From assembly GCA_022376465.1 (NCBI GenBank), contig JACDTU010000009.1, positions 310,001-374,000 on the forward strand: a stretch of DNA of 64,000 bases, read 5' to 3'. Positions 9,688 to 41,362 of this stretch are shown here, in pieces. Both the position numbers and the translations under genes were made by a program. Under the pieces are notes generated by a model. That model saw nothing but the letters and a program-made list of their open reading frames with translations. It was not told where the DNA came from and ran no database searches. The stretch is from Cubamyces lactineus (Eukaryota; Basidiomycota; Agaricomycetes; Polyporales; Polyporaceae). Each line of letters begins with the position of its first letter. Position 1 is the first letter of the stretch.

Positions 9688-10064
9688 AGGGACTTCAGTA
9701 TCCCGGTTGGAACCCGGCCGTCTATTAGACGGTGCCAGGTTCGAACCGGTTCCAAGTCCGGCGTCAAAGCGAGGGCAGTCCGCAAGCACTACAGACGAGT
9801 TGGAACCGTACACGGGTCCGGTTCCAGCTCCCGCCCGGTTCCAACTTCCGTCTGGTTCCAACTTCCTACTTAGTAGGAAACCGCGTCCCCTGGGGAAGGC
9901 CGCCGGCAAGTACTAGAGACGGGTTGGAACCGCACAAAGGTCCGGTTCCAACTACCGTCCGGTTCCAACCTCCTCAGGAGCTCGAGGAAAACACGCCGCT
10001 TGGGTATCGAACCCAAACGTTGCAGCAAACAGGTTAGTCTCATCGACCACTCCATCATCAGGGC
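9688..10064 (+). repeat. Left terminal inverted repeat of the KDZ-type element
   Basis: About 377 bp, homologous in inverted orientation to 40041-40395. The outermost 65 bp are the best conserved. The near-palindrome CCGTCTATTAGACGG is at 9718-9732 and the perfect palindrome GGTTCGAACC at 9738-9747. About nine GGTTCCAAC/GTTGGAACC units follow to about 9970, then a tRNA-like module on the minus strand. The inserted sequence supplies the spurious C-terminal residues and stop (9873) of the broken Plavaka frame. Confidence 0.8.
9987..10064 (-). ncRNA. tRNA-like Pol III module in left terminal repeat, reading outward
   Basis: On the minus strand from 10064 the sequence has an A-box-like segment (TGATGGAGTGGTCG), then a perfect T-arm: five base pairs TTGGG/CCCAA around the loop TTCGATA, which is a B-box match. 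A TTTT run follows 8 nt later (9987-9990). The 5' and 3' flanks do not form an acceptor stem, so this is not a functional tRNA. It resembles the head of a tRNA-derived SINE. Transcription is inferred from the box motifs. Confidence 0.5.
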
Positions 10065-10601
10065 TTTACTTACATCGGCTACTCGAGCAGTAGAAGTCGT
10101 TCAATCGTACTTACGCACAACCCCGTGTAGGGCCACAATAATCTCTCCACGGGCTATTCGGGTGACCGACATTGCACGTCTCCGGCTTGCGCGTCGATAC
10201 GCAGGCATCTGACGCACAGTCGCAGGTGAGAGAGCAGACAGTGTGAGAAGGGCAAGAGCTCCAACCTCAATAACGTGCCGAAGTTATCCAGACGACCTGC
10301 TGCCCGCTTCGCAACATCGCACCCGCAACAGCGCCTCGCCACATATGTCCCCACTGATTTTCTGCAGTAGAGAACGTTCTTGTTAGTAGCCTACATGACG
10401 AAGCAATGATAGCCCGACGCTTACCGTCTTTCTATCTTTATCAGGCACAGGGGCAATACACCGCCACCCCCGCCATCATCTGTTCGATCGATCAGCGAGA
10501 GTCTCCTCGAATGTCAAAGTTAGCACAGTGATAGATACGTCCTGTATTCCACCAAGAAGCTACAAACACAATTCGCATACGTCCGAGTACACGCTTGCTA
10601 C
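10065..10601. other. Non-coding arm between left terminal repeat and small gene copy A
   Basis: No supported coding region. Around 10455-10510 is a segment (CCACCCCCGCCATCATC...GATCGATCAGCG) also found downstream of copies B (about 11500-11550) and C (inverted, about 39680-39735), so the repeated unit extends beyond the small coding sequence. Confidence 0.5.
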
Positions 10602-11119
10602 CTAATCTTTCGCTGGAATCGCGAAGCAAATCCCCACCGCGTCGATGTCGTCCGGGATTTCGATGAAATCTGCTGCCGTTATGTTATAGTTGTCGCAGAG
10701 CATATTTGCGACCCTACAAGTGATTCTCAGATGTTAGTAGCGCGTCGTCAATAGCAGTAACTTACGGTGTATACTCCGGAGGCCACCAACCGTCCTTGCC
10801 TGTAGGCCAAGCCACAAACAAATCGTGTTCGGCCCCATGTAACCCCAGTGGCGGCTGCAACGTTATTCCGACGTTCGTCGCCCCACCGATCGTCTTGAAT
10901 CCAATCTGTACGAGGGCCTGTGGTTTGTTAGAGCGCGAACAATATGAGAATTTCGTAGCGTACGTCGATGAACGCATCAAAGTCCGCGTTCGCCGTAGCT
11001 CGTCTGTCGTCTCCAATGACGCTGTGGATTGCCTGTGCGCGCGTCAATACCTCATGCGCCAGTTGATATACCTTACTCACCACATATAGATGCGTTTTCA
11101 GGGCGTATGTGGGTGCCAT
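10602..11119 (-). CDS. Small unrecognised protein, copy A (four exons)
   Basis: Start ATG at 11119-11117 (MAPTYALKTHLYV), stop TAG at 10604-10602. Three short introns separate MAPTYALKTHLYV, a GDDRRATANADFDAFID exon, an exon ALVQIGFKTIGG... ending DGWWPPEYTP, and a last exon (ANMLCDNYNITAADFIEIP). The product is about 120 aa with no signal peptide or membrane span. I do not recognise the family. Two paralogues (11673-12191 minus, 39037-39553 plus) keep the same exon structure and protein-level conservation (MAP-YALKT, GDD-RA, IGF, DGWW, EY-P, DFIEI), which supports a real selected gene. All copies read toward the nearer element end. Confidence 0.7.
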
Positions 11120-11672
11120 TGCAAGGTGTGGGCGATGTTCTTGAGGGCTGTGGATAGGGAGCGCAAGGCGCGCTCTCGCGCGGGCGCCAGAGAGCGCGTC
11201 GCGCGCTTTTGCGCGTCACAGCGCGACATCAGGTTCCCCCAAGGTCAGGTCGTCTTGCAGGTTAGCAGGAAGACCCCTTCGTCTGACCAACGAGGTCGTA
11301 TCCAGTACGCGACCACGTCGCCCAAGAGAACCAATACTGACCCAAAACAACCCAATGAATGATACCGTTCCGTGTCCCACGTCGTCAAGCTTGAGCTCGC
11401 GTTTGCCTTTTCAAACATTGTAGTCAGCGTAATGTACTCGGTACTTCGTCCATGGACCCGTGTTCCCGAGTAGCCGATCCAGGCAGGTACCGGTGTCGTA
11501 CACTGCCACCCCCGCCATCAATTCGGTTGATCGATCAGCGTCGATTTCTCCACAGTACGCCTCTGCAAAGTGAGGATCAGCCACCATACAATGTGAAGAC
11601 GGTATATACATCCAGCATTCTATCAAAAAACGACCATGGAAACCTATAACGCGCGTGAGCACCCGCCTGATC
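11120..11672. other. Spacer between small gene copies A and B, with GC-rich palindromic block
   Basis: Just upstream of copy A (11158-11215) is a dense GCGCGC block (GCGCGCTCTCGCGCGGGC and repeats), with a similar block upstream of copy B (about 12229-12263). These can form strong hairpins and may be promoter-proximal. The rest is non-coding, and part is the repeated downstream segment of copy B. Confidence 0.4.
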
Positions 11673-12191
11673 CTAGTCCATCGTCGGAATGGCGAACCCA
11701 GCGTCCACCATGTCGACCCTATCCGCAATCTCAATGAAGTCAGACGGCTTCATGTTGTAGTTGTCGCACAGCATATTCGCAACCCTACAAACGAATCTCA
11801 GATGTCAGTAGCACACTCTCAATAGAAGTAACTTACGGGATATATTCGCAAGGCCACCAACCGTCCTTGCCTGTAGGCCAAGGCACGACCAAATCCAGGT
11901 CGGCCCCATCCAGCCCTAATGGCGGCTGCAATGTGATCCCAACGTTGGCTGCCCCGCCAACCGTCGTGAATCCAATCTCTAACAGAGCCTATAGCGTGTC
12001 AGAGAGCGGACAATACATAAATATTCCAGACCATACATCGATGAACCCGTCGAAGTGCGCGCTCGCCGTAGCCCGTCTATCGTCTCCCATGACGCTTTGG
12101 ATTGCCTGCAGTCGCGTCAGTATATATGTTTGTGTAGACATACCTTACTCACCACATAAAGAAGCGTTTTCAGGGCGTATTTGGGAGCCAT
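11673..12191 (-). CDS. Small unrecognised protein, copy B (tandem paralogue of A)
   Basis: Start ATG at 12191-12189 (MAPKYALKTLLYV), stop TAG at 11675-11673. It has the same four-exon layout as copy A at 10602-11119, with conserved residues around MGDDRRATASAHFDGFID, LLEIGFTTVGG, KDGWWPCEYIP and SDFIEI. Coding sequence and downstream non-coding sequence are both similar to copy A, so the pair arose by tandem duplication of a unit of roughly 1 kb. The function is unknown. It reads outward toward the left end of the KDZ-type element. Confidence 0.7.
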
Positions 12192-12697
12192 GCTCACGTC
12201 TGATCCAGTGTAGGCGATGGTTGTGGCCAGGGAGCGCGTCGCGCGCTCGCGCGCCTACCTACGTAACCCTGGCGCAACGCCAGGCTCGCGCATCCGTTCC
12301 TCCTTCGATTCTTCGTCCTCACCCCGCGCGTACTTGCGCCAGTATTTCGGCCGCCGCTCAGTCTTCGCCTGTTGAATCTTGAATAAATGTGCGCCATCAA
12401 CGCGGCGCTTACCCATCCTGTACACAAGAGCCATGTGCCCGAATATTCAACTCTGCGCGCGGTGAGCATGTATCCGTTGGGACGAACGCGCCTCAACTCA
12501 CAAAAATGTCAGAACACCTCACCATGTCCGAACACTCCCTACCACCCTGCACCACCAAGCACAACCCACACATCGCTCCTCCTGACCCCGCACGGACCTC
12601 ATACGTAGCTAACATCTACCGATTCATCCCGCACACTCTGGTCGCTATGTACCGTTCTAACCTGGTCAAATAGCCGCGAGATGATGTCTGAATCAAC
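12192..12697. other. Intergenic, no supported gene
   Basis: Begins with a GCGCGC-rich palindromic block (about 12229-12263) upstream of copy B. A 55-codon plus-strand frame starting at 12508 (MSEHLTMSEHSLPP) is too short and composition-biased to call. Confidence 0.35.
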
Positions 12698-13140
12698 TCA
12701 CAGCGCTTTGGCAACGTCGACAGCTAGGTCGCTCGCTTCGTCGAGGCCCTCGCGCGCGTCGTGGTTCAGACGCGATGGCGCGGCGTTTGAGGGTATGACG
12801 ATCTCGCGACCCCAGACAAATCAGGGCCGAATACTTGCCCACAGGTGATTAGACCTCATGAGCCCCGTGCTTCTCGATCCAACGCTCCTATCTGCTGCTG
12901 TCCGAGCATCGCGAACGCTCTATGAACCGGTCCCTGTCGCGCGCTAGAGTGAGGGAGCGTAGCGTCTACCGTGCCTTGGGCTACAATAGAGGTTGTTTGT
13001 GTGCCTTGGGCTCACCTTCGCCATATGTACCCACCGTTCCCGTCGCGTGCGAGGTCGGTCACGTAGACGGTGCAGTCTGCCAGTTTGACGGGACGTGCGA
13101 AGCCAAGTATGCATGGGTTGGCGGCGGTGGGTGGATACAT
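12698..13140 (-). pseudogene. Possible small gene or gene remnant
   Basis: Minus-strand coding-like segments: an exon from the ATG at 13140 (MYPPTAANPCILGFARPVKL, continuing to YIWRR, about 13013) followed by a GTGAGC donor, and a terminal segment at about 12815-12698 (IVIPSNAAPSRLNHDAREGL, ending in AKAL and TGA). The sequence between shows no clean frame joining them. I do not recognise a family. It lies between the small gene copies and the KDZ transposase inside the giant element. Confidence 0.3.
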
Positions 13141-13380
13141 GCACGCGCATGTCGTAGCTGAAGGTGATTGGCATCAGGTCACTGGGATCGATGTGGCCAG
13201 CGTTATTTGAAGCTGAGAGCAGTTTGCGCGCGGCCGTGCGAGCTCCTCCAGATAGTCCAATTCTCGACCAACATGGTTGATCCACGGCCCTTCCTACTGA
13301 ACTCCCACTGGGCAGTCGACGTTGCCCCAGTTCCCGATTTCTCGGTTCAGAGGCCGTGGCCCAGTGGTGAATTGTCCGCA

Positions 13381-13474
13381 CGGACTTGTTGATAAGCGCC
13401 CGGACTTGGAACCGCTCGTACGGACTTGGGACCGCTCGTACGGACTTGGGACCGCTCGTACGGACTTGGGACCA
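13381..13474 (+). repeat. 20-bp tandem repeat array
   Basis: Unit CGGACTTGGGACCGCTCGTA at 13401, 13421 and 13441 (the first with one substitution), a partial fourth at 13461, and a degenerate unit at 13381. It is non-coding and about 340 bp from the 3' end of the KDZ transposase gene. The core TTGGGACC/TTGGAACC resembles the subterminal GTTGGAACC repeats of the element ends. Confidence 0.8.
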
Positions 13475-13810
13475 TTCAGACTGCATCTCGCGCCAGGCTA
13501 TGCATTTGCTCAGTCAGCTGGGCCCTAGAAGCATGCTCTCATGCTCACAAAGAACAGTGCAATCACCCATATGCACATGCGTCGCGCCTCTATCGCAATC
13601 TGTGTGATCTACCGCATACCTTAGTATTGGCACAAACGCTCATTAGGCACCCAAGAGCGAGGGATGACACCGCGTACGGGTTGGAACGTCGCGGGTGGGC
13701 TTGAAGCCGCCTATCATCAGGCACGCCCTCCTCTACTTCATCTTTGTTGCTCTAGGAGCGCGGTGCCTGCTATGCGGCTATGCAATTGTCGTATGTTATG
13801 GCTGGTTGCC

Positions 13811-16800
13811 TTACTTAGCGAAGCCTATACCCTGTACTATGTTTGTCAATTCACCTTCACCGCCACATTGGCCCTTACGTACCATGCTGACATCCGAGGG
13901 GAAGGCGTGTCTGGCATCGGCCAGCAGTCGCGCATATCTGTGCGACTGTCTGGACAGTACGGGTCAGTGTCTGTTCAAGTCGTTTTTGCATCACTTACCG
14001 TCGAGCGTACACCATGGCTCCCTCCCTTCCATCCTCTGCAGCATCCATCCCGCGCGCAGACCAGCGATCGCGGTAGTACTCAAAGAACAGAGTAGTCCGG
14101 TACATCTCCTCTCGTTTGATGTACACCTCCTCTTGCCATCTTGCTCTCGCAGCTCGTTTCCTAAACCAGAACGGACGAATCTCTGTCGCTGGTCAGTTAT
14201 ATCGCGCTTCCTAAAGAGTGTCGAACTCACTGTGATACATGTACTCCTTCACCTCGTTGTCGCCCTGGTCATTCGCAAACGAGAAGTCCTCCCATAACCA
14301 GCTCCCCGTCCTCTTACTGTCGCCACGACGATGCTGGTGGCTGAAGACGATGAACGGTTTAGCATCCTCATCTGTGAGGATGCGAAAGGTCTTGTCGTCC
14401 TCCGGCATTCCCAGTTCCACTAGCACCTTTCGCACACGACGGTACTCGTCCCGCGCCTGGTGTCCGATCGCCACCTCCGTCGCTGCCAACGCCTTGACGC
14501 GCTGCCCGTGCGCTTGTCCGGTGCCTTGCCCGCGCAGATCTTCCAAGCTATACAATGCTGTCAGATGTGTACGCAGCTCGTCTAGTGCGTCCTTGGCTTG
14601 TCCTTCGCGTAGCTTCCGCTCAATTGACACAGCCTCCTCCATCTTTGGGTGTGTTCTGATCCCAGTTGCGTAGTACGATGGCAGTTCCACATGGATAGCA
14701 TGGAGCATTTCCAGGTATTCTGACAAGTACGCATCCTCGAGCAGCTCCGGGCCTGGATCATGAGGGAGCAGTGATGTCATAATATAACTGAATGTCGCGT
14801 ACCTGTGTCCGTCGCTGTGCCCGAGTCGTTGCTGGTCTCCCCTCCACGATCACATGAGAGAGGAAACGCGTCCACACTGGCGCCTTCCGTGCCACAACTT
14901 CTGCATGCCAGGCGAATGTCCTCCACCGCCGCGGTGACTCGCTCTCCAACAAACCGCTCGTACTGTCTTCGACACACCTCCGCCTGTCCCTGTAGCGCCA
15001 GGACTCTCCTTCCCAGTGCGTTCCTTTGCCTAGTCTTTAAGGGGTCGGCTTCTCGTACCTTTTTCGTCAGTCGCAGCCTAGTCAGTGGTCAGTGACGAGT
15101 CATCAAGGAGAAGGAGAAAGCAGGCTCACTTCTCGCGCTCGATTTCGATCATCTCCTGGATGGCGCTCACCATTCCGACCCCCTGGAGGCCAGACGTCTT
15201 TGATTTGTCTTCTTTCAACACCTTTAAGGCCCCGGCCTCAGATAGGGCTACACAGAAAGCATAAACAACGGCGCTGTCACCGAGTCACTCCAGCTACTGA
15301 CCAGCGTCGACATGCGGACTGTATGGATCCTCCATGTGCTCGTGATTACGGAAATCAACCACGTCCCGCAACCACTTCGCTTCGTCACGGCGCCACTCTG
15401 TCAGTTTGTCGTTTGATACGCTCTGTTCCAGTTTTTCCAGCGCCTCGGTGGTTTCCTGCAGGAACCGCTCGGCCTCGTTCAAGGAGGTCTCCAACATATG
15501 TGCTGAAACCAGTGGCATCAGTGGATCAATTCACGCGTCATAGAGTCATCATACCGATGTTGTGCACACGGCGCACATGCAGGTCCGAGTACACGTCGTT
15601 GAGGACATCGTGTCGGTGTCCCGATGTCATCTCCTTCGTGCGCGCGCTCACATCGTTGGTGATAGCCCATAGTCGCTCCATACCTTCGCCTTCGTACCTC
15701 CCCGACCCTGGCATGAACTCGGGCGACTTGAATATGCGGCAAAGGATCTGGTGCGCAAGAGAGTGCCAAAGACCGATGGCACCCTCAGTTCGAGGGAGGT
15801 TGAAGGTAGTGATGGATGCCAGAGGGAGACATAACTGCTTCCAGTGTTCAAGGCGCCGCCCGAAGTTAATGAGATACTGGCAGGCGATGTCGTACGTTTG
15901 TTTGACAAGCCGCAATCCCACGTATGGTTGCATTCCGGATACCACCGCGAAATCGACGTACAGATAGCTGTGTGGTGGCCAGTTAGTGCTAATGATCATA
16001 CACGACGTTGATGAAACACACGCACGCCTCGCGTTTGTTCAGATCCACAATGGACCCCGGCAACATAAACATATGGCGGCAGGCAAGGGCGATAATGCCC
16101 GAGACTTTGCCGTTATGACCGCCATATCCTGCGGCGCCGAATTTGTGGCAAGTCGTGAGCTACACACTGTCAGTCCCGCCAACGTAGATCGCATCACTCT
16201 GCTTACCTCTGGTTCAGGCTTCCCGATCTTTGATGCGTACTCTCGGAAGTCATCGACATCCGCAAAGTATCCCGCGCCACGCGACAACGCTACGTCGTTC
16301 TTGTCCATAGGTTTGTTACGCTGGCTCTGACGGAAGTTGCCGTCGATGGAGTAGAACAAGGCGTCTAAGTAGCTGCAGGCTTGTGAGTTCACGCCGCAAC
16401 GTCGCGCCAATGTAGCAATCGCACATACGAGTAATCAGCGCAACGATCCTTCCAGTTTACGCGCATGTTGATTCCTGGCTGAGGGCAGCAGGGGCACTTC
16501 ACCGTCAGGCTTCCCCTCGTCGTGGTCTTGCCGGGCATCTCACCCGCCCGTTTACACTGTCGGAGGTACGCAAACTCTCGCGCGCTATTGCTCAACTCGC
16601 GATATCGGTCCTAGGATAATGTTTAATACAATCAGCCGATGCAAATGAACCTGGACTTACCGGCACAGTCTTTGGCGCAACGTTGTCCGTCTTTCATCGA
16701 AGATATGTATAGAAGTCCTCTGCGCTGCAATGTGTTTGCAACGACAGCAGATGGTAAGATTCGAGGAGCGTGATCGTGTATGCCGTCCGCGGTTGCTTCC

Positions 16801-18027
16801 ACGAGGCCGGATACAGGCCCATCTCAACCAACTGCAGAGGTTCGGAGGTAACAAGCTGCTCGCCGCCGGCCATCTCCGCGCATTCGCAGAAACTACATGA
16901 CATGCTGGATACGCCGTGTTCGTGAACGAACACCATCATCCGCGGGTCTCGGGTGATGTTAGGACACGGCGCCCCGTTGTGACCTCCCCACAGCTTCATC
17001 CCAAGGGCTCCCGTCGTCGTCTTGTGCCAAAATCCATCCTCAGTGCTCCACTGCCAGATTCTGTGGAACGGTGTTCGTCTGTGCGTCCGCAGCAAACACG
17101 TTTCGCAATAGTGCGGCCTCCCTAGGCAGTCATAGCAGCGAAGACGGCACGGCGCACCCTCCGCGGGCATAGGGAGGTGCTGGTCGCAGGCCGCGCATGT
17201 ATCCTCCCGTTGAGGTCCTACTTCGTATTGAAGAATAGCTTCCAGGGCGTTCTTGGCATGGTCCTTGGTGAATTCCGCGAAGCGATCCGATGGTTTCTGC
17301 GTGGATGAGTATGTGCCGTGCGCTCTTGCAAGATATCACTCACAATGGTATTATTCACCCTTGCCTTCCCGCGTTTCCCATGATTCTTCTCCCCCTCCCT
17401 CGCTGGCTCGCTTGCCGCATCACCACCTGTTCTTGAGTGGTCGATCGGTAGATCCTCGAGTGGGTCGAACGCATCGGTCGGAAGCGCATAGATGTCCGCG
17501 TTGGTAGACAGCGTGACCTCTCTAGTCTCACGGGCCTCCGCGCTCGCCACAGAGGGCACGACGGCAGAAAGAGAGGGTAGTGGAGGCTGGGAAAGAGGGG
17601 GAGAGCGTAGCGAGGGCGCGCCTTGGGAGACATAGGTAGCAGGAAAAACGGGAGCGGGCAGTGGGGGCGTCGCAAGCCAGGTAAGAGTGGATGTCGATCC
17701 GCTCGGGCTAAAGAAGGTCGACGGCGTTGTAGAGGGAACCACGACAACTCTGTCTCGCTGGGATCCGGAGGCACGCAGGAGGGGGCGAAGACGTCGCGGG
17801 CTTAGAGGTAGCTGACTCTGGCCGTTGGTAGAGGTTATGTTAAAGGTCGCGTTGGAGCCCCCCCATTGCTGCATGCCTTCTGCCAATTTTCGTTTCTTCC
17901 TAGGGGTCTCTGGCATAGCGTACGTCCGAAGCTGGATGCGTGCGCGAAGAAAGTTTCTGCAAACTTTGCGCCCGGTATGCGGCGCCCGCCGGTTGTCCTC
18001 GTCCTCGTTCAGATCGCGATCGCCCAT
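13811..18027 (-). CDS. KDZ (Kyakuja-Dileera-Zisupton) transposase with CxC2 cysteine cluster
   Basis: Long multi-exon minus-strand gene. The N terminus is disordered and basic; possible starts are the ATG at 18027 (MGDRDLNEDEDN) or the in-frame ATG of MPETPRKKRKLAEGM. A CxC2 zinc cluster follows near 17200-17060 (CRLRCYDCLGRPHYCETCLL). A second Cys motif (VKCPCCPQPG) is near 16510. Catalytic-type residues are in order: Asp in SIDGNF (about 16344), Asp in YDIACQ (about 15891) and Glu in EGMERLWA (about 15678), the DDE-like triad of KDZ enzymes. Coiled-coil C-terminal exons (about 15520-14230) continue through RARWQEEVYIKREEMY (about 14150-14000) to a small last exon with TAA at 13813-13811. 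It presumably mobilises the 9688-40395 element. Exon joins near both ends are approximate. Confidence 0.85.
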
Positions 18028-19559
18028 GCGATTCCTAGCGATACATCAAGTATGCTTGGCAACTCTAACTAAAACACATGCACGATACACAGTCCATACA
18101 TTTATGAAACACTTTTCGAGTAGTCTCAAAGTCCTATGGTCGGTCATTCGTAGAGTATTAACAACGTGGATTCTCGCCGTACTCCGTACCGTTGTAAGCA
18201 AGGCGGCGGCACCCAGCGGCACCCTCAGGATTGGTGATGGTGATCGATATAAGGCAAAGCATTTTTCCAGAGGCGCACTTCTCGACCGGCGGTATGACCG
18301 AGGAGTCGATTTGCTCCCGATGGCAAACGGAAGCAAATTCATGGGTGTCAGGGGCAAGTTGATCGAGGGACGACCAATGTGGGGTAATACTGGCTTTCAG
18401 CGACGCCACAACAAGACTTCGTTAGCACTATGTACGGCGCTGTGCTACACAATACACTTACTGCGTGTTAAAGGAACCGTTAGAGTATGTGTTTGAATTC
18501 GGAGGTATCGCTAAACGCAGCGATAGCGTATGTGGCCCTGCACGCGTCCATCTGTCAGTTAGAATGCATGTGAGATCGCGAAGGTGCGACTCACGTCGGT
18601 CGGTCGATCGTTAGCCCATCCAGCATTCCATCCACGCCTCGAGACGGTACGCACGCCCCAAGGCTTGTGCGCGTAGGTTCCACCAGAAGGGATACAGCCT
18701 TCAAACATCAAGAGTGACGGAGAGTCGATGGGAGTTGAGCCTGGCTATGCCATTGCTCTGGTCGGGTCTGGGTAAACCAGCACACCGTGAACATCAGAGG
18801 AACGTGCAGTATGCAACGGTCATATGACCCGCAATACTGTCGTTGTCTCATCTGTTGGAGGGGAGGAAGTGGAGGGGAGTGAGAACCAGTCAGTGGGCAT
18901 GATCGAAGCGCAGTGGGGGGAGGAAGCAAAGGTCGATGTCCACTAATTGGCAACGGTGGACTTGAGTGAATTCGACTTGAGGGCATTCGAGCGGAGTTCA
19001 CAACAACATACTTACTTGTTACTTATCGTCTACTTGAAGCATTGACAGAGCGATAACGAGGGAGTTAAACGCGGAGAATCCGGAGTGTTGTACGTGAGAA
19101 TCGCCATGAAAGCCAGCAACACCTCGTGTTCGGACCGAATCTATCTCTTGCTTTCCTTCCACCATCACTCACACTCGCGCTGCCTCGCGATCCTTGCTCT
19201 CCCTCTGCTTGACACCAAACTCTTTCTGCAGTCGAGTCTCAGAGTCGTAGGCGGGTAACATTGCCCTTGCCACTTCTCTAGCTCAGCCTACCATCTGAGA
19301 CAGTTCGTGCGGCAACGCGTCGACGAACTGCTCTCCCCGGCACTCCTTCGAGCAAGACATCTTTGCGCAAGACACGCTGCCGTCATCTCGTCGCCTCAAA
19401 ACACTACGACGTCCTTGCGCTCACGCGTACCAAACGAAACTCTGCCCCTTGCCTTTCGTGACCCCTATCTGGTCATTGACACCTTTCGGCGATTGGAAAG
19501 GTGTGTGGAGGTTGGGATGACTTTCATGGCTGATTGTAGTCGCCCATACAGTACGTACG
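18028..19559. promoter_or_regulatory. Divergent intergenic region between KDZ transposase and cargo genes
   Basis: 1.5 kb without a supported gene, lying between the minus-strand transposase and the plus-strand cargo array. It presumably holds both promoters. Short open frames here have no recognisable domains. Confidence 0.4.
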
Positions 19560-29951: not shown

Positions 29952-29956
29952 CATAT

Positions 29957-30506: not shown

Positions 30507-30520
30507 TCAGCTCCCCCTCC
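30507..30520 (-). promoter_or_regulatory. Polypurine tract
   Basis: Immediately upstream of the 3' LTR on the minus strand, GGAGGGGGAGCTGA ends at the LTR boundary (30506). This is the expected plus-strand DNA primer site. Confidence 0.8.
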
Positions 30521-30540
30521 GCTGAAGGTCGTCCTCGACC

Positions 30541-31836: not shown

Positions 31837-31903
31837 AGTGAATAGAGGAGAAATTTGTTCAGAAAATTCGAAGAGATATTGGGTGAGGAGTGGGTTGAGT
31901 CCT

Positions 31904-34900
31904 TCACGACAACTTGTGCCTCTTCTTATAGTTGCGCAAGATCGACTGCGCGTTCTTGAGATGTCTTTCTGGTTCCCAAGAATTTTCCGATGCGGGCCAG
32001 CCCTTCCAAGCCACTAGATACTGCTTTTGGGTACCTCTAGTGCGGTGGCTCAGAATTGCTTCTACCTCCCATTCCTCTCCTTCAGTTGATTCAGGAGTGG
32101 GAATCGGTGGAGGTCGGACATAGTCTGGTCCGTGCTCCTTAGTTGTGTGGTACGGGGTAAGTAGCGCTGCGTGGAAGACGGGGTGTATCTTCCATTTCTC
32201 CGGAAGCTTTAACTTAAATGTAACCGGTCCCAAGACCTTGACGATGGTGAACGGTCCCACTTGTTTTGGAATCAACTTCCTGGAGACATATGGAAGCCTG
32301 AGGTTCTTTGTATCGAGAAGAACCTTGTCTCCGAGCTTCAGCGGAACTTGCGCAGCGGGGAGCCTTCTTGACATAGCTGCGGCGGCCTGCGCATGCGCCG
32401 CTATTGTATTCTCCCTGGCTTCCTGAAGACTTTGAAGCCTCTGCTCCGTACTTGGATGCTTTGGGGTGGTTCGGACTGTCCCAACGGCCTCTGGCTGAAA
32501 CCCGTAGAGTAGCTCAAACGGGGATTTTCCCGTGACAGAGTGTGTCCGCTGATTGTGCGCGAATTCGAATTGAGGCAGCAGTTTGGCCCAGTTCTCCGGA
32601 TTGTTAGCACAGTAGAGCCGAAGTGCTAAGTCGAGTTCTTGATTTACTCGCTCCGTTTCCCCATCTGTCTGAGGATGGTAGGCCGTGCTGAGTGCCGTTT
32701 CAATTCCGAGGCTATTGTGTAGTTCTTTGAATGCCTTGGATATGAATTGCGGCCCCCGATCCGAGATGACCTTCGCAGGTAGTCCGAATCTGCGATACAC
32801 ATCCCTTTGCAGAATATCCATGGCTCCTTCTGCCGTAATATTCTTGGTGCAAGGGGAAAATACCGCTGCTTTGGATACATCATGGTCGACTACCACTTGG
32901 ACGGCATTAAAACCATCCGATTCTGGTAGATCGGTGATATAATCCATGGTAATTGTCCGGAAAGGCCTAGTATCCCCACTGTGTTGAATGGGAATTAAGC
33001 CTGGTTTAATGGGATGCGTATTGACCTTGCTTGTTTGGCAAGCGGCGCAACCTTTGACATATTGCGCGATGAATTTCCGCATGCCTGGCCACATATATTC
33101 CCGTTTAACCAGATCATAGGTTTTCTGGACTCCTGGGTGTCCCATAATCGGTGCGTCGTGATGCATCTTGACTATATCACGATACAATTGATTATCTGGT
33201 GGAACGTATACTCTGTTCTTGTACAGGAGTATTCCGTCGTCGTCGGACCAATCTTCTGGTTTGCCGAACTCTGGGCGTTTGGTAGCCTTTCCTTTTAGAG
33301 TAATGTACTCTACTACCGAGTTGTCCCGTAGCTTGCTATCACGGATGCGCTCTTGTAGCTCAACGTTGACAGCTTTGGCAAAAAGTTCTGGCCCTAGTAA
33401 TACGACGTCCTTGTTGTCATTTTCCCCCCCGTCATGCCCTGATCTCCGAGAAAGGGCGTCTGCTTGAGTGAGGGATTTTCCGGGCTGGTGCTTGATTACG
33501 ATGTTGAACTCCGAGAGGAATAAATGCCATCGCGCCTGTCTGCGATTTAACTTCTGCGCCGTACGGAAGTAGGTCAGATTTTTGTGATCTGATAGGATTT
33601 CTGTAGGGTGTGGGGAACCCTGCAAAAAATGTCGCCATGCTTCGAGAGCTCGAACAATGGCTAACAATTCTCTATCATAAATCTGATAGTTCCGTTCCGC
33701 AGGAGTAAAGGACTTGGACAAATAGGCACAAGGATGCCATAGTCCGTCCTCTCCTTGCTGTCGTAGTACAGCACCTGTTGCGACCTTAGAAGCATCGCAC
33801 TCAATCTGAAATGGTTTCTCCGGATCCGGGATTTGTAGGATCGGTTCTTCAGTAAACCGCTTCTTGAGTGTATTGAATGCTTTCTGACAATCAGAGGTCC
33901 ACAGAAAAGGCTGGTCCTTCTTGGTCAATTCCGTGAGGGGTCGGACTATCTTTGAATAATCCCGAATGAACCGTCGGTAGAAATTACCGAACCCTAGGAA
34001 TGCCTGAACCTGCTTGACTGTTTTCGGTGGTTCCCACTCGATAATTGCCTTGAGCTTTACTGGATCCATAGCGACTACCCCTGGCCGAATTATTGATCCT
34101 AGAAATTCGACTTCTTGTCTGTCGAATTCGCATTTTTCCGCCTTGAGGAATAGATCACTGTCTTGAAGTCGCTGTAAAGCTCTTCGCGTGCGTTTGTGAT
34201 GGTCCTCGACATTGTCTGAGAATATCAGGATGTCGTCCATGTAAATGACCATCCATCCTTCCTGAAGCATGTCCCGGAAGAGATCGTTCATCATGTTCTG
34301 GAATGTGGCCGGTGCGTTGCACAAACCAAAAAACATGACTGTCGGTTCGAACAATCCGCTGGGTGTTATAAACGCAGCTTTCCACTCATCACCCTCTTTG
34401 ATGCGAACATTATTGTACCCTGCTCGCACGTCGAGCTTGGTGAATATTGTGGCCCCTTTCAGCCGGTCAATGATGTCGCTGATGAGCGGCAAGGGATATG
34501 CGTTTTTGATAGTCCCCTCGTTAAGAGCCCTGTAGTCTTGAACAGGTCGAAGACTCCCATCCTTCTTGGTGACAAAGAAAAATGGCGAGGCTAGTGGAGA
34601 CTTGGATTTTCGAATGTAGCCCTTCTCGAGGTTCTCCGCAATGAATTTGTCGAGTTCTATACGTTCCGTATAGGTCAGAGGGTAGATTTTCCTCCAAGAC
34701 CCCTTGGTATGATGGTCGAAGTCCTTCTTGAATTCGATAGCATGGTCCCATGGTCTCGAGGGCGGAAATCTACTTGCTGCCTTTTTCTCAAAGACCTGTC
34801 GATAGTCCTTTACAAAATCAGGTAGGATTTCGTCCAAGGTCTTCTCCTTCTGGTCTTTCTTCGCTGCTATAGCGATCTCCGTAGACTTATTAATCTTTCG

Positions 34901-35566
34901 GATTTTCTTCTTGCGGTACCATAGCTCGATGGCCCTCGAAGGATTAAATGTAAGCCTTTCGGAGTCTGGGTCTGCGTCGTCCTCGTCCGGTATAGCACGT
35001 ACGAACGATACGACCAGATCTTGATTTAGAGGTTTTACTGGGAAATTCCACAGCATCCCTTCGGGTGGGTCGTGCTCGCATTGGTATTTATGGATCTGCT
35101 GCTGCTTCTTGATAATATCCGACTTGAAAGTAATGCGTCCACTTTCCCAGTCGATATTAGGATTGTACTTGCGGATCCATGGCATGCCGAATAAGACATC
35201 GTCCCGCCCAATGTCGGCCACATACCAATTTGTTGGGAGCTTCTTCCCGTGTAGATTAAATGTCCCCTCCACCCGATGGGTAATGGTTCCCATGCTATTA
35301 ACGCTATCGTCCGCGTTCCGGAAAGTCAGAGTCTTCGGTAGTCTGACTGTCGGAAGATTGTACTTGTCCACAATCTTTTTATTGACGATCACGGCATCCG
35401 CACCAGTGTCGATGAGCCCCTTGATTTCGACGGCTTTGTCCTGAACCTGCATGTAACCGGGTATCAGCAGAGCACTGCGTCTCCGCTCTGTATTGGTTAC
35501 AATAGTTACATGCAGTTCCTTGGGCAAGTCAGGCGTCGAGTCTGCTTGCCTGCCTAAAAACCCGTC
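31904..35566 (-). CDS. pol: Pol polyprotein: protease, RT, RNase H, integrase, chromodomain
   Basis: Open from 35566 with no ATG at its start, as expected for a frameshift product. In order: aspartic protease (IDTGADAVIVNKK); reverse transcriptase with the YMDDILIF catalytic box; RNase H (IECDASKVATGAV, YDRELLAIVRALEAWRHFL); integrase with an HHCC zinc finger (MHHDAPIMGHPG...CAACQTSK) and a D,D,E core (TITMDYITDL, VISDRGPQFI, HPQTDGETERVNQ); a C-terminal module; and a chromodomain (EVEAILSHRTRGTQKQYLVA, WKGWPASENSWEPERHL). It makes cDNA and inserts it; the chromodomain probably steers integration to marked chromatin. About 1,207 residues follow the first conventional codon, and no disabling lesion is visible. 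Confidence 0.95.
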   Translation of the reverse strand, partial: DGFLGRQADSTPDLPKELHVTIVTNTERRRSALLIPGYMQVQDKAVEIKGLIDTGADAVIVNKKIVDKYNLPTVRLPKTLTFRNADDSVNSMGTITHRVEGTFNLHGKKLPTNWYVADIGRDDVLFGMPWIRKYNPNIDWESGRITFKSDIIKKQQQIHKYQCEHDPPEGMLWNFPVKPLNQDLVVSFVRAIPDEDDADPDSERLTFNPSRAIELWYRKKKIRKINKSTEIAIAAKKDQKEKTLDEILPDFVKDYRQVFEKKAASRFPPSRPWDHAIEFKKDFDHHTKGSWRKIYPLTYTERIELDKFIAENLEKGYIRKSKSPLASPFFFVTKKDGSLRPVQDYRALNEGTIKNAYPLPLISDIIDRLKGATIFTKLDVRAGYNNVRIKEGDEWKAAFITPSGLFEPTVMFFGLCNAPATFQNMMNDLFRDMLQEGWMVIYMDDILIFSDNVEDHHKRTRRALQRLQDSDLFLKAEKCEFDRQEVEFLGSIIRPGVVAMDPVKLKAIIEWEPPKTVKQVQAFLGFGNFYRRFIRDYSKIVRPLTELTKKDQPFLWTSDCQKAFNTLKKRFTEEPILQIPDPEKPFQIECDASKVATGAVLRQQGEDGLWHPCAYLSKSFTPAERNYQIYDRELLAIVRALEAWRHFLQGSPHPTEILSDHKNLTYFRTAQKLNRRQARWHLFLSEFNIVIKHQPGKSLTQADALSRRSGHDGGENDNKDVVLLGPELFAKAVNVELQERIRDSKLRDNSVVEYITLKGKATKRPEFGKPEDWSDDDGILLYKNRVYVPPDNQLYRDIVKMHHDAPIMGHPGVQKTYDLVKREYMWPGMRKFIAQYVKGCAACQTSKVNTHPIKPGLIPIQHSGDTRPFRTITMDYITDLPESDGFNAVQVVVDHDVSKAAVFSPCTKNITAEGAMDILQRDVYRRFGLPAKVISDRGPQFISKAFKELHNSLGIETALSTAYHPQTDGETERVNQELDLALRLYCANNPENWAKLLPQFEFAHNQRTHSVTGKSPFELLYGFQPEAVGTVRTTPKHPSTEQRLQSLQEARENTIAAHAQAAAAMSRRLPAAQVPLKLGDKVLLDTKNLRLPYVSRKLIPKQVGPFTIVKVLGPVTFKLKLPEKWKIHPVFHAALLTPYHTTKEHGPDYVRPPPIPTPESTEGEEWEVEAILSHRTRGTQKQYLVAWKGWPASENSWEPERHLKNAQSILRNYKKRHKLS
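35523..35563 (-). promoter_or_regulatory. Programmed -1 frameshift signal between gag and pol
   Basis: On the minus strand the last gag codons are ACG GGT TTT TAG, so G GGT TTT (35563-35557) is a canonical X-XXY-YYZ heptamer. A 6-nt spacer follows, then a potential hairpin: GGCAAGCAG pairs with CTGACTTGCC (one bulged A) around a 9-nt loop. The pol frame opens only at 35566, just upstream of the heptamer, and is in the -1 frame relative to gag. Confidence 0.85.
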
Positions 35567-37428
35567 TCAAAATCTGTAGCCCTGAGTGCGTTAATAGAAA
35601 TATTGTCCTCTTCGTCCTCTTCGTCCTCTTCGTCTGAGATCTCCTCAGACTCGTCCTCTAAGTCCTCGTCGGTAACCTGTCGTACCTTCCGACTGACGGG
35701 TTTGCCGGGCTTCTTAGGTTTAGAAGGACAGTCTCTGGAAATATGTCCCGGCTTCCTGCACCGGAAACATAGTCCCTTGTCTTGCAGCTCCTGTCTCTCC
35801 TTGACAGAGAGCTTGTTAATATCGAGCGAGTCGTCCTCGATATTAACCGTCTTGACATTCTTCCTAGTCTTCGAGGTTTTGGCCTTGCGTCCTCTACGAT
35901 TAGCCAAAATCTTCTCCGTAAGGTGATAGCTATGGTCGATCTCCTTAGTCCTAGTCATCCACTCTTCAATGGTCGTCGGCGGAGGGTACGACATGGATAT
36001 CTTCTTAAGTAAATATTCTGGAAGCGCATTTCTGTACAGGGCCAGTTGCGCTGCTGGGTCCAGAATTTTTCCCTTGAGAGCTAGATCCATGAACCTCGCA
36101 TTGAACTCATCAACTGAAGAGTAGTCCTTGAGCTGTATTGTCGTGAGATTAACCATAGAGTCGTCCACCTCGTCTACTGGGGCAAATGCGAGCAGGAAAT
36201 TCCTCTTGAAGACCGGCCAAGAGTCAAATCCTCGATAGACTCCCGGTCTAATTTCCTCTTCAGCTCGCTGAATTGTGATGTCCTTCCAGTAGTTTATATT
36301 GTCCCCTTCCATGAAGGACAGGGCCGTCGCCACCTTCGTGTAATCATTAACGAAGTCGTGGGGTCGCGCCGTGAACAACAGGAACAGTTGATTGAGGAAG
36401 GACCTGGTTTTGTCTCGGTCTCCGTTGAAGACCTCAGGGTCCTTGATCTTGCCCTTTCCGTGTCCTTGCGGCGCATTTCCTGGAGCTTCTTGCGGTTCCG
36501 GGTCTGGGTCTGGTCCTGGTGGTCCTCCTCCTGGGGAGTAGGGATCTGAAGGCTCAGGGTCAGGCCGACCTCCGGGCCTACCTGGTCCGCCTCCTCCTCC
36601 ACCTCCAGAAGGATTGATAACTCCTCCAGAAATTGCCGTTGCCCGAGGGGCTGGTCCACTTGATAAAGACCCGTATCTTTCTCCTTCTGAGCCTTGCCCT
36701 TGCGGAGTGAACGCATATCTATGGGCTCCAGAAATGGACTCTCCTGTCGCTGTTCCCGACATGTACGATGGTACTGATTTTCGTACAAATTCTGGGGTTG
36801 CGCTGCGACCAGTATACTCCAATTCAGATTTAGTCTCCTCGACCTCTGTCTGAATATGCTCTTCTCTCGGTTCAGGTGTTTCTGCCTCTACCCGAGTGTC
36901 TTCTGTTTTCGGTGCAGGTACTACGACCTTAATCCGAATAGTTTCCTCGATTTTCGGTTCAGGTGCTTCGACCGTCGTCCGAAAAGTCTCGTCCTCCTTG
37001 TCCGAGTCCTCTACCTTAGGCGGTTCGGTCTCCTTTCCTTTCTCCTTGAAGGATGGACCTGATTCCTTAGGTGATTCGGATTCTTGAGGTTTTGGGGTTC
37101 CTACTCTTGAAGTCGGAAACGATCCTGACACAACTCTCGGACTATTAATCCGACCAGTAGCTTTTCCAGCAAGTAGTGGCTTCTTGACTAACGCGGGTTG
37201 TCGTCCGTGGGTGTTAGTAATATCCCGCTCTTGTGAAGAGTGTGTTAGGATTAAAGCCGATGCGTGCTTGACGTTTGGAACCTCCTTAGTGTTGTACCGA
37301 AGTGGACACCTTTCGTTGGTGCAAAAATTCCACTTGTCTACGCTTTCTCGATAGTATACGTCCCGAGCTTTGTCGGAGTTGTAGAGATGATATAACCTTG
37401 AACAACTATATGGTTCAGCTGAACTCAT
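35554..37428 (-). CDS. gag: Gag polyprotein (624 aa) with CCHC zinc knuckle
   Basis: ATG at 37428-37426 (MSSAEPYSCSRLYHLYN), the first AUG on the predicted transcript. The N-terminal half is acidic and Pro/Gly-rich (Gly run followed by GRPDPEPSDP). A retrotransposon capsid-like region follows (VFNGDRDKTRSFLNQLFLLF, FKRNFLLAFAPVDEVDDSMV, about residues 330-450). The zinc knuckle is CFRCRKPGHISRDC near residue 560, and the C terminus is acidic. It ends ETGF then TAG (35556-35554). The stop abuts a GGGTTTT slippery heptamer in the correct phase, so a fraction of ribosomes should enter pol in the -1 frame. Packages genomic RNA in virus-like particles. Confidence 0.93.
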   Translation of the reverse strand: MSSAEPYSCSRLYHLYNSDKARDVYYRESVDKWNFCTNERCPLRYNTKEVPNVKHASALILTHSSQERDITNTHGRQPALVKKPLLAGKATGRINSPRVVSGSFPTSRVGTPKPQESESPKESGPSFKEKGKETEPPKVEDSDKEDETFRTTVEAPEPKIEETIRIKVVVPAPKTEDTRVEAETPEPREEHIQTEVEETKSELEYTGRSATPEFVRKSVPSYMSGTATGESISGAHRYAFTPQGQGSEGERYGSLSSGPAPRATAISGGVINPSGGGGGGGPGRPGGRPDPEPSDPYSPGGGPPGPDPDPEPQEAPGNAPQGHGKGKIKDPEVFNGDRDKTRSFLNQLFLLFTARPHDFVNDYTKVATALSFMEGDNINYWKDITIQRAEEEIRPGVYRGFDSWPVFKRNFLLAFAPVDEVDDSMVNLTTIQLKDYSSVDEFNARFMDLALKGKILDPAAQLALYRNALPEYLLKKISMSYPPPTTIEEWMTRTKEIDHSYHLTEKILANRRGRKAKTSKTRKNVKTVNIEDDSLDINKLSVKERQELQDKGLCFRCRKPGHISRDCPSKPKKPGKPVSRKVRQVTDEDLEDESEEISDEEDEEDEEDNISINALRATDFETGF

Positions 37429-38321
37429 ACACGTTGTGCTTGTCGTAGGAAAGCCTGATGTAGTTCCCTAGCTCGGAGGCAACTACGAAATTTCCTAAGA
37501 TTTTCTTCGAGGTCTATATCTGCGTAGTTCTCCGGATTGAGGACCTTTGCTCGCAGGTAGTCAATCTGGTTCTGAAGATATCCCGCAAAGTTCCGTACCC
37601 TCGTTGGAGGTGTAACAGCTTGTCTTGGAATAAATTCGAGTGTCTGGATGACCTGAGTTATGTATCGATGGGCTCGTTCGAGAGTCGCGTGATATCTCCT
37701 CGTGAAGTCTTCCTGTCCTAGTACTTCCAAGTTATCTGCTATAACTCGAAGTGTATCGATCGCGTGTACCGGAAGCTGTGTTCTCCGATAGAATATCCCT
37801 GCCGTTGAGGATGCTTCTTCAACACTAGTTTCTGGAGTCGATCGATCCGAACTATCCGTTCCTGGACTCGCTCGGGTTGGAATGGGTACGCCTATTGCTA
37901 CTCCTGATTCCGCCTGAATGGCCAGAGAATTCCTATATTCTCTCCACTCGTCTGTTCTCTGAAACGCGGGTTCTTGTTCCGATACTCGAGTGCTCCGACC
38001 CGACGATGTCGAACTGGTACTTTCTACGTAAGGGATTGTCGAGCTAAAACCTCTTATCAAGGGGAATGGGGATCCTCCTGGCGATCTTGGGAGAGCAACT
38101 ATATTCTCCGGGATCGCGAGTGGTGGTAAGCTCGGCAGTGTTTTGTTCCTTCCGCCTAGTACCCTGGGTGATTGTCGCAATGGGGGTTGTGTAGTTCCCT
38201 CCGTATTGACTATCGTCTCTCTGTACGTTACGAGCAAGAGAGAGTTCTGATGCGTTTCGTAGTCGTTGTCTTCCGACGTAGGCCTCTGCACTTTTAACAA
38301 GTGGAGGGTTAAAGCTTTCAG
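37425..38321 (-). CDS. Retrotransposon ORF1: methionine-free open frame upstream of gag
   Basis: About 290-298 codons without a stop and without any internal Met. No ATG occurs in this frame or in either other sense frame from the predicted RNA start to the gag ATG. Candidate near-cognate starts are the CTG at 38321-38319 (A at -3) or the TTG at 38300-38298. The first half is Ser/Thr/Pro-rich. The second half is helical (DNLEVLGQEDFTRRYHATLE, NLRKFRSCLRARELHQAFLR). It ends TGA at 37427-37425, overlapping the gag ATG as ATGA. It could be an N-terminal Gag-like product from non-AUG initiation, or a constrained leader. Function unknown. Confidence 0.6.
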   Translation of the reverse strand: MKALTLHLLKVQRPTSEDNDYETHQNSLLLVTYRETIVNTEGTTQPPLRQSPRVLGGRNKTLPSLPPLAIPENIVALPRSPGGSPFPLIRGFSSTIPYVESTSSTSSGRSTRVSEQEPAFQRTDEWREYRNSLAIQAESGVAIGVPIPTRASPGTDSSDRSTPETSVEEASSTAGIFYRRTQLPVHAIDTLRVIADNLEVLGQEDFTRRYHATLERAHRYITQVIQTLEFIPRQAVTPPTRVRNFAGYLQNQIDYLRAKVLNPENYADIDLEENLRKFRSCLRARELHQAFLRQAQRV

Positions 38322-38324
38322 TCT
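38313..38324 (-). promoter_or_regulatory. Self-priming primer-binding site
   Basis: Two nt after the 5' LTR the sense strand reads AGACTGAAAGCT, the exact 12-nt reverse complement of AGCTTTCAGTCT at the predicted RNA 5' end (38504-38493). No TGG-type tRNA primer site is seen at this position. This is the Tf1/sushi self-priming arrangement, consistent with a chromodomain element. The same stretch holds a CTG (38321-38319) in frame with the following ORF. Confidence 0.8.
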
Positions 38325-38326
38325 AA

Positions 38327-38876
38327 TGTTACGCTTTCGAGCGTGACTCTTAAACTATCAAGCCTTAAGACGTCAATGAATAGAGAGCTTGTATCTATTC
38401 AGCTACTAGCCCTAGCTTGTCGAAGATAAGCGCGTAGTAGTATTTGCAGTTGAAAGCGAGTTAACGAGCAACCAAAGTCGTATTTCGCAAAGAGACTGAA
38501 AGCTGAGGGTCGCTCTATGGCGTCGCCTCTTATATACATGTATACCAGCCTGTAGACGGAACGTTCTAGCGTATACAAGGACTTTCTGGTGCGTAGTAGT
38601 CAGCGCTAGTCGAACCTAGTAACACTGTGGCAGTGCTGCTGTGTACTGTGCAGAAGCGCTGTGCACTGCGCGGCAGCGACTGTGCACTGTGCAGAAGTAA
38701 CTGTGCATGGAAAGTCCTAGAGCATCCTAGATAATACGAGACTGTTCCATAGAATCCGCCATATACAATCGTAGCTGGAGTCCCAGAGCCTACCATACTT
38801 GTATCGTACAGAGTAAGTACTAGAAACCGTTACCAGTTCGTCGAGACGTCGCAATACCTATTGTACATTCGTAACA
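38327..38876 (-). repeat. 5' LTR (right copy)
   Basis: 550 bp, identical to the left copy by eye. On the minus strand U3 spans about 38876-38505 and R-U5 about 38504-38327, judged from the TATA box and the self-priming match. Confidence 0.95.
38504..38536 (-). promoter_or_regulatory. Retrotransposon TATA box and predicted transcription start
   Basis: TATATAAG at 38536-38529 on the minus strand lies about 25-32 nt upstream of AGCTTTCAGTCT (38504-38493), the 12-mer complementary to the downstream primer site. In Tf1-type elements that 12-mer would be the RNA 5' end, so spacing and complementarity independently point to a start near 38504. Confidence 0.7.
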
Positions 38877-39036
38877 CATATGACAAGGCCGACGCGAATC
38901 CGCGCTAGGCCTAACGACGCGCGCTCCGACGCCCATGGGAAGCGACGCGCTGTCTACCGCCCGCGCGAACCCGCGCGACGCGCTCTCTGACCAGATCCTC
39001 TGTCTACACACGCTCACACGCAACCTGACGCTCGCA

Positions 39037-39553
39037 ATGGCACCAAAGTACGCTCTGAAAACGGCGCTATATGTGGTGAGTGCTGTATGTGTACAACTGG
39101 GAGCCTACTCACGCATCTGTAGGTAATTCAAGGCGTGATAGGAGATGACAAACGGGCGGCGGGTAGTGCAGACTTTGACGTCTTCATCCAGGTATGTGTG
39201 TCCCTTGACTGAATGGTCTGCACACTCACTATGTACAGGCCCTCGTAGAGATCGGCTTTACGATGGTTGAGGGGCCGGACCGGGCAGGGCAGACCTTGCG
39301 GCCGCCAATGGGTGTGAAGGAGGCCGAAGATGATTTGTTCATTCGTCGACCTGCGGGGGAGGACGGCTGGTGGGCGTATGAGTATATTCCGTAAGTACCT
39401 TGCCTTCACGGTGCGCTACTTGCGCTGAGGATAGCTAGCAGAGTTGCAAAAATGCTCTGCGAGAAGTATGACATCAAGGCCACGGATTTTATCGAGATTC
39501 CGGATGTTGTAGAAATCACGGGCGCTGGCTTCGCGATCCCGGCGATGGATTAG
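39037..39553 (+). CDS. Small unrecognised protein, copy C (near right end)
   Basis: Start ATG at 39037 (MAPKYALKTALYV), stop TAG at 39551-39553. Four exons with GTGAGT/GTATGT/GTAAGT donors match copies A and B. Conserved segments are GDDKRAAGSADFDVFIQ, LVEIGFTMVEG, EDGWWAYEYIP and ATDFIEIPDVVE. It lies 842 bp from the right end of the KDZ-type element, as copy A lies 914 bp from the left end, and it reads outward in mirror orientation. The gypsy element inserted about 160 bp upstream of its start. Function unknown. Confidence 0.72.
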
Positions 39554-40040
39554 GACTGGATTCGCACTCGTGTGTCTTCTGAATAGTGTTCGTAGGTTCT
39601 TGGTAGAATTACCCGATGTCTGTACTGCGCTTGCAACGTCCTGTAGCTGATGTTCGCTTGATCAGGGCAATGCGGAGAAATTGATGCCGATCGATCGATT
39701 CAATCGTATGGCGGGGGTGGCAGTGATCACGCCTTGTACCTGAACCTGAACGCTCACGGCAAATTGATACAGAAGAGTGTACGAATGAACCTGCAATTTC
39801 ACGGCGTGTGTGCGCTATGCTAATTACAAGGGCAGAAAATGCTAGCTGTCGGCGGTGCGCATGTCATAAAAAGGGGACCCTTATTCAGATGAGTTCGACA
39901 CGGCCTGAGATCTGTGAAGTGCGCCTCCAAGATGTATGCACTTCTAAGGACCGCGCTTTGCCAAAGACTGACAACGCTGCACGATCTTGCGCAGGTACGT
40001 CCTAATCTGAGTCAGTGCAGCGGCCATGAGACCTTCCATA
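39554..40040. other. Non-coding arm between small gene copy C and right terminal repeat
   Basis: No supported gene. It contains the inverted counterpart (about 39680-39735) of the GATCGATC/CCCCCGCCAT segment found downstream of copies A and B, so the two arms are related beyond the coding part. Confidence 0.45.
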
Positions 40041-40116
40041 GCCCTCATGGCGCAACGGTCGAATGCTTGACCTTATCTCCTCGACGCTTGGGTTCGAAAC
40101 CCGAGTACTGTGTTTT
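40041..40116 (+). ncRNA. tRNA-like Pol III module in right terminal repeat, reading outward
   Basis: An A-box match TGGCGCAACGG near 40048-40058 is followed by a perfect T-arm, TTGGG/CCCGA around loop TTCGAAA (about 40089-40105), which is a B-box match, and TTTTT at about 40112-40116. It is homologous to the left module (both begin GCCCT.ATG). No acceptor stem forms, so it is not a functional tRNA. Transcription is inferred only. Confidence 0.5.
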
Positions 40117-40395
40117 TCATCCGGATGTGTTGGATCGGCGCGCGAGGGAGCTGGAACCGCACGGGAGGGGGAGTTGGAACCGGACGCGAGGCGGTCCCAA
40201 CCGGCGAAGTGGTCCCAACTCCTACTTGGCACGCGGAGTCAGTTGGAACCGGTCCCAACCCACCCCCGGTTCCAACTTGCTTCCATATCCTGGCCGGCCT
40301 CTTTGGTCGCCACTCTTTGGCGCCGAAGATGGAACGGTTCGAACCTGGCACCGTCTAATAGACGGCCAAGTTCGAACCGGGAAACTGAAGTAGTT
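40041..40395 (-). repeat. Right terminal inverted repeat of the KDZ-type element
   Basis: Inverted homologue of 9688-10064. Near-palindrome CCGTCTAATAGACGG at 40351-40365 (30 bp from the tip), GGTTCGAACC at 40336-40345, and about six GTTGGAACC/GGTCCCAACC units between 40145 and 40280. It is followed by the GGATTTCAG duplication (40396-40404) and then Plavaka coding sequence. Confidence 0.8.
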
Positions 40396-41350: not shown

Positions 41351-41362
41351 TTTTTCCTGATG
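41351..41362 (-). repeat. Plavaka element right terminal inverted repeat
   Basis: TTTTTCCTGATG, the exact reverse complement of the left terminus, followed by TT (41363-41364) and then HET coding sequence. The 41206-41350 interval inside it is non-coding and contains GTAGC-type subterminal repeats. Confidence 0.82.

Follow-up and report, generated by a model that had tools for sequence, protein, structure and literature searches.

A multi-gene KDZ transposon family with exact ends in the basidiomycete Cubamyces lactineus

A 64,000-nucleotide stretch of the Cubamyces lactineus genome (contig JACDTU010000009.1, positions 310,001 to 374,000; hereafter the window) carries one member of a KDZ transposon family that is real, recently mobile and multi-genic. 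Copies of the whole unit stand at different sites with exact ends and 7-bp duplications, share a fixed gene set with low ratios of nonsynonymous to synonymous substitution rates (dN/dS), and have shorter relatives with ends of the same kind. We read the family as a cut-and-paste transposon with a native length of about 20.4-22 kb, encoding five conserved proteins (a KDZ/CxC2 transposase and proteins B, C, D and E) together with small S genes, and place the probability of this reading at about 0.87. An earlier, first-pass annotation of the window had proposed a KDZ DNA transposon with exact ends and several non-transposase genes, and this proposal is supported by what follows.

Limits, copies and shorter relatives of the element

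The window element occupies positions 9687-40396, that is 30,710 bp including a nested insert. Its limits and flanks, and the insert, are as follows.

8269-9686, + strand: 5' part of the interrupted host gene, a Plavaka transposase (itself a mobile element), PF18759, 4.7e-88
9680-9686: left target site duplication, GATTTCA, 7 bp
9687-9770, + strand: terminal inverted repeat, G-type end, starting GAGGGACTTCAGT and containing CCGTCTATTAGACGG; 88% identity to the opposite end over 78 bp
9687-10070: subterminal region of the G-type end, with 9 motifs of GTTGGAACC/GGTTCCAAC/GGTTCGAAC type in the outer 360 bp and an outward tRNA-like (B-box) module at about 10000-10070
29952-29956 and 38877-38881: CATAT target duplication of the nested retrotransposon
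29957-38876, - strand: nested Ty3-type long terminal repeat (LTR) retrotransposon with chromodomain, 8,920 bp
29957-30506 and 38327-38876: LTRs of the nested retrotransposon, identical at 549/550 positions
40037-40396: subterminal region of the other end, with 6 motifs of the same types and a tRNA-like module at about 40041-40107
40314-40396, - strand: terminal inverted repeat, C-type end, starting CAACTACTTCAGT reading inward
40397-40403: right target site duplication, GATTTCA, 7 bp
40404-40794, + strand: continuation of the host gene, same frame

The ends had first been placed at 9688 and 40395, within a 9-bp duplication. Their exactness holds, but each lies one base further out: the sister-copy termini GAGGGACTTCAGT and CAACTACTTCAGT give 7-bp duplications, and the window element therefore runs from 9687 to 40396, the GGATTTCAG reading of the duplication having taken in one terminal element base per end. 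Two random 7-mers from the window agree by chance with a probability of 1.15e-4. When the flanks were joined without the element, keeping one copy of the duplication, a single frame remained open through the junction; both ends thus lie in one recognisable gene, as the first-pass annotation had it. The joined flanks had no other match in the genome, so that the empty site rests on frame and duplication and not on an empty allele.

The span of 30.7 kb is not a native size. The nested retrotransposon, which the first-pass annotation did not notice, has open reading frames between 30541 and 38354 for gag, protease, reverse transcriptase, RNase H, integrase and chromodomain. It is found in the window copy and in none of the other four full-length copies; without it the element measures 21,785 bp. 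Giant size in an assembly can come from nested insertion, a caution for elements of this class.

A search of the whole genome with one element end gave 43 matches, some of them as facing pairs. Besides the window copy, four full-length copies of 20.4-44.8 kb were found at three other sites.

C30, 34503-56446: 21,944 bp, duplication CATGAGG
C31, 58166-78603: 20,438 bp, duplication GGCTCCA
C40, 1499609-1520096: 20,488 bp, GGCTCCA on one side only
C20, 46040-90813: 44,774 bp with nested inserts, duplication TGGGGTA

Other copies with these ends and with their own duplications, whose absence would have refuted the first-pass reading, thus exist, the duplications being of 7 bp and distinct in four of the five copies (window, C30, C31 and C20). 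C20 and C30 stand at different sites and share 99.3-99.9% identity, so that transposition was recent. At C40 the duplication is missing on the left side. C31 and C40 are 99.7% alike over the element and the right flank, and their left flank switches exactly at the element end; such a switch may come from a one-ended event, from rearrangement or from a join made in assembly.

Two further observations concern the history of the copies. The window copy is mosaic: from about 12.2 to 25.2 kb it is mostly 97-100% like C31 and C40, then 84-94% to about 28.7 kb, and the synonymous divergence (dS) between window and C31 rises from 0.013 in the KDZ gene to 0.36 in gene E. Recombination between element copies is the likely source of this mosaic at 12226-28900. 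In C20, positions 58693-75929 are a nested element of 17,237 bp that belongs to a second KDZ family and has its own 7-bp duplication (AATCTCG), CxC2 and KDZ domains, and inverted ends that are near-identical after a few unmatched terminal bases. A related 4.7-kb element sits in the same copy.

The two window ends are inverted repeats over 57 bp at 93% identity and over 78 bp at 88%. Looser likeness extends over about 360-400 bp, the first-pass annotation having described diverged repeats of about 360 bp. The first five or six terminal bases differ between the ends, and matching begins after them. The palindrome CCGTCTATTAGACGG is present in both, although C31 and C40 have one base of it altered at their C-type end. 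Motifs of GTTGGAACC type are clustered near the ends: the two 360-bp window ends have 9 and 6, the 20-kb interior none.

Each of 11 aligned ends contains, about 290-380 bp inward, an outward-reading tRNA-like module of B-box (GGTTTCGAA) type, in which ARAGORN recognised no tRNA. A module of this kind in each end is what one would expect if the ends were unrelated short interspersed nuclear elements (SINEs), or other repeats, joined by rearrangement, a case that the first-pass annotation had named as a refutation of its own reading. We consider this origin refuted. A 131-bp query containing the module of the window right end matched only the window itself in the genome at E <= 0.001, and the module is therefore not a high-copy dispersed repeat; moreover, 7-bp duplications flank four copies and the host frame is open through the joined flanks.

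Relatives without transposase were also found. The exact end pattern has 42 matches in the genome, versus 0 for the reversed control, and among these matches are 13 facing end pairs, 1.2-45 kb apart. A 1,394-bp element at C16 has the same kind of ends and its own 7-bp duplication. At C3, a 21.1-kb element with ends of the same type and the duplication GGTTTAC is swollen by nested gypsy elements. It is without KDZ, B and C genes, its matches to D (E 0.98) and E (E 0.02) are at chance level, and one weak S-like match was obtained (0.005). Judged from its sequence, the C3 element is non-autonomous. The C16 and C3 elements together establish that relatives lacking a transposase exist.

Genes of the element and their conservation

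The first-pass annotation had listed a KDZ transposase, four further genes and a small gene in three copies, all of which are borne out by domain matches and gene models.

10602-11119, - strand: small gene S, copy 1, 3-exon model, 139 amino acids, transcribed toward the near end
11676-12191, - strand: small gene S, copy 2
13995-17916, - strand: KDZ transposase with CxC2 cysteine cluster, 11-exon model, 1130 amino acids
19827-22983, + strand: gene B, annotated as 617 and 954 amino acids in sister copies
23263-25202, + strand: gene C, 7-exon model, about 544 amino acids
25985-26511, + strand: gene D, conserved part, 159 amino acids, two exons; full limits uncertain (about 25751-26761)
27467-28174, + strand: gene E, conserved part, 202 amino acids, three exons; may extend to about 28865
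39037-39550, + strand: small gene S, copy 3, at the opposite end and transcribed toward that end

The transposase matches the KDZ domain PF18758 (2.2e-23, 83.6 bits versus a cut-off of 26.6), and its N-terminal cluster is CxC2 (PF18803, 2.6e-23). The DGN, YDxxCQ and ExxE positions, which we take to be the catalytic residues of KDZ transposases, are invariant or nearly so across 25 homologues. The window frame has one in-frame TGA, at residue 393, because of which the window copy is probably not self-sufficient. C31, C40 and C20 have uninterrupted 11-exon frames, with modelled splice sites that are GT-AG except for one GG donor in C20. C30 has the same GG donor, and one of its KDZ exons is interrupted by a 687-bp insertion that has a 7-bp duplication.

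All five copies have the same gene set, with some genes damaged: besides the transposase and the S genes near both ends, it comprises B to E. The transposase is read one way (the - strand in the window), B to E the other way (+ strand), and the S genes outward. Substitutions between copies are concentrated at third codon positions. Between diverged copies, KDZ, B, C, D and E have dN/dS of 0.11-0.12, 0.13-0.14, 0.23-0.24, 0.07-0.19 and 0.13-0.16, respectively, these ranges being taken from pairs with dS of at least 0.13 (0.13-0.38 for B to E), with pairs below 0.03 excluded. The excluded pairs show very few changes; window-C31 gives 0.21 for KDZ, 0.14 for B and 0.54 for C, and C30-C20 gives 2.73 for KDZ, 0.33 for B, 0.46 for C and 0.28 for E, D being unchanged.

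This conservation extends to a more distant relative. A sister element at C16, whose C-type terminus is at 29075 and whose KDZ side is beyond the contig, has B, C, D and E arranged and oriented as in the full-length copies, at protein identities of 57-60% (B), 41-44% (C), 31-50% (D) and 42-46% (E). At a third locus (C30, 14.8-19.4 kb), with about 34-40% identity, gene B and a KDZ gene are arranged head to head. Matches to B, C, D and E in the genome are confined to the five copies and these diverged relatives at C16 and C30. Gene B is found at seven genome loci, with KDZ sequence adjacent at six of them; at the seventh (C16) the contig begins beside B.

A protein search with B gave 35 matches including its own copies, none with a Pfam domain. 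The named matches belong to Cubamyces, Trametes, Ganoderma, Lentinus, Dichomitus, Earliella and Epithele, all genera of Polyporales. For gene C a single match was found, in Trametes cubensis (37%). Pairing of KDZ and B across species was called by shared species and contig size. By this measure five of 28 KDZ matches, from other species, pair with one of the 35 B matches (T. sanguinea contigs of 19,752 and 284,330, T. maxima 789,566, T. meyenii 1,066,384 and 1,745,299), and a sixth comes from C. lactineus itself. Over six pairs, the distances of KDZ and those of B vary together (r 0.83; 11/720 permutations as high). Association, conservation and co-divergence support the reading of B as a partner gene of the transposase. 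Among the 25 KDZ genes in a tree limited to homologues found here, those known beside B form no single clade. This would fit an old pairing with other partners elsewhere, or loss, or several gains.

From the fixed gene set, the dN/dS of 0.07-0.24, the order kept in the sister element and the B-KDZ linkage, we read the extra genes as transposon parts; they look like conserved components rather than shuffled cargo. Several points weigh on the other side. The remaining 22 of the 28 KDZ matches share species and contig size with no B match. A Starship-like carrier, in which a KDZ engine gains and drops host genes and B to E are host-useful passengers, is what the first-pass annotation had in mind with "cargo". 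It would account for several genes unrelated to the transposase between precise ends, and for a gene C with one detected database relative; in addition, gene content was compared in the five full-length copies, C16 and C3, and two mid-size elements with the same ends, at C4 (9.4 kb) and C11 (8.6 kb), are outside this comparison. Against a carrier, all five copies agree in gene content and have low dN/dS, the B-C-D-E order is kept in the diverged C16 element, B lies on KDZ contigs in other species, and B to E occur in this genome only within these elements and their relatives. The cargo analogy is therefore weak, and we consider such a carrier unlikely.

It might also be that the non-transposase genes are functionless remnants, captured once and hitch-hiking since. 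No recognised domain, fold or function was found for any of them, and B has no Pfam or PDB match; the Pfam scan took in 30 of the 68 listed open reading frames (at least 110 amino acids) and the gene models, including S, D and E. Damage is seen too: the B and C frames are broken in C31, and E is split by a 4.7-kb insert in C20. However, B to E have dN/dS of 0.07-0.24 at dS of 0.13-0.38, and the C16 element keeps their order at 31-60% protein identity. The remnant explanation is largely refuted, and in our estimate very improbable.

Concerning the damage in C31, this copy differs from the window by 14 insertions or deletions in B and 2 in C, of 1-2 bases each, whereas C40, 99.7% identical to C31, has none. 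The frame-breaking changes (C31, 65400-69600) may be due to decay or to errors, C31 being a small contig. In its 5' part gene B contains a tandem repeat (19915-20337) of three 141-bp units, 47 codons each, and the C31 copy is one unit short.

Relation to known elements and a possible mechanism

Kyakuja elements, of the KDZ type and found in Agaricomycetes, have 7-bp target site duplications and 5'-CA..TG-3' termini, without terminal inverted repeats for Kyakuja-1 and -2 of Laccaria (Kojima 2025, PMC12730594). The family described here resembles them in its KDZ-type transposase, its 7-bp duplication (four of five copies and the 1.4-kb relative) and one end in 5'-CA, and some Kyakuja families have a second gene (PMC12730594). 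Unlike them, it has 5'-CA..TC-3' termini (GA..TG in window orientation) and terminal inverted repeats that follow 6 largely unmatched bases and are about 80 bp long. Genes like B to E are unmentioned in the available part of PMC12730594.

No TET/JBP gene was recognised here, the 30 scanned frames and the gene models giving no Pfam dioxygenase; the PF20515 profile was silent everywhere, controls included.

Zisupton (8-bp duplication, PMC12730594), Dileera and KDZ1 of Cryptococcus neoformans share with the present family a KDZ core with a CxC cluster, terminal inverted repeats and insertion within genes (PMC12730594; PMC12810828). Zisupton and Dileera differ from it by the 8-bp duplication, here of 7 bp, and KDZ1 is about 11 kb with 241-bp terminal inverted repeats and CxC1, whereas here 20-22 kb and CxC2 are found (PMC12730594; PMC12810828). 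Giant KDZ elements reach 30.3 kb in Ectocarpus and 31.7 kb in Chlamydomonas, where the element is active, and fungal KDZ elements frequently have accessory genes according to the same source, citing Iyer et al. 2014 (PMC12477816). The algal elements are alike in size class, accessory genes, nested unrelated transposable elements and broken transposases with inferred mobilisation in trans. They are from another kingdom, and their nested inserts are generally fixed among copies, whereas the 8.9-kb insert here is private (PMC12477816).

Starships, known mostly from Pezizomycotina, with eight in the basidiomycete Tremella fuciformis (PMC13066641), are likewise large multi-gene fungal mobile elements with duplications at their ends. 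They differ by a tyrosine-recombinase captain and variable cargo, where the present family has a KDZ transposase and an invariant set of genes.

No such captain was found in the 30 of 68 frames scanned or in the S, D and E models. DUF3435 (PF11917), which we take to mark Starship captains, had no match anywhere in the genome, nor in any control.

The first-pass annotation thought the element possibly undescribed. This applies to the family in the window but not to its kind, giant KDZ elements with accessory genes being already described in algae (PMC12477816). A fixed five-gene version with an orphan partner B was not found in a literature search limited to open papers. The kind is thus already known, and what is new is a fungal variant with the orphan partner gene B.

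As to mechanism, we suppose that the element would move by cut-and-paste chemistry. Its transposase may recognise the palindrome CCGTCTATTAGACGG and the clustered GTTGGAACC motifs at both ends, and would insert with a 7-bp stagger. Protein B, and perhaps C to E too, could act as a partner that serves in synapsis, in regulation or in evading silencing by the host. The window copy, having received the 8.9-kb retrotransposon and a stop codon in its transposase, keeps both ends and would at most be mobilised in trans. A bolder proposal, which we put forward tentatively and with some doubt, is that this Polyporales KDZ lineage is an obligate multi-protein transposition system. In such a system orphan B would join the transposase as a core protein, and the element would encode C, D, E and S as a conserved module, perhaps anti-silencing, filling the role that TET/JBP is thought to have in other KDZ elements.

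For most accessory genes of giant transposons in eukaryotes no role is known, and they are often labelled cargo. Copies, a diverged sister and linked genes in other species separate conserved element genes from passengers, and show the extra genes here to be retained and under selection. A KDZ transposase working with a dedicated partner protein is a testable claim, for which the exact ends, the duplications and the small relatives provide the material.

Solo diverged copies of the S gene were also detected, at C43 (641374-641690) and at C1 (318452-318610), the latter less than 3 kb from another KDZ gene. To the right of the window element, positions 41361-45321 contain diverged direct repeats with 2.9-kb spacing, partly similar to 3638-4292 on the left; these are perhaps further Plavaka-type copies.

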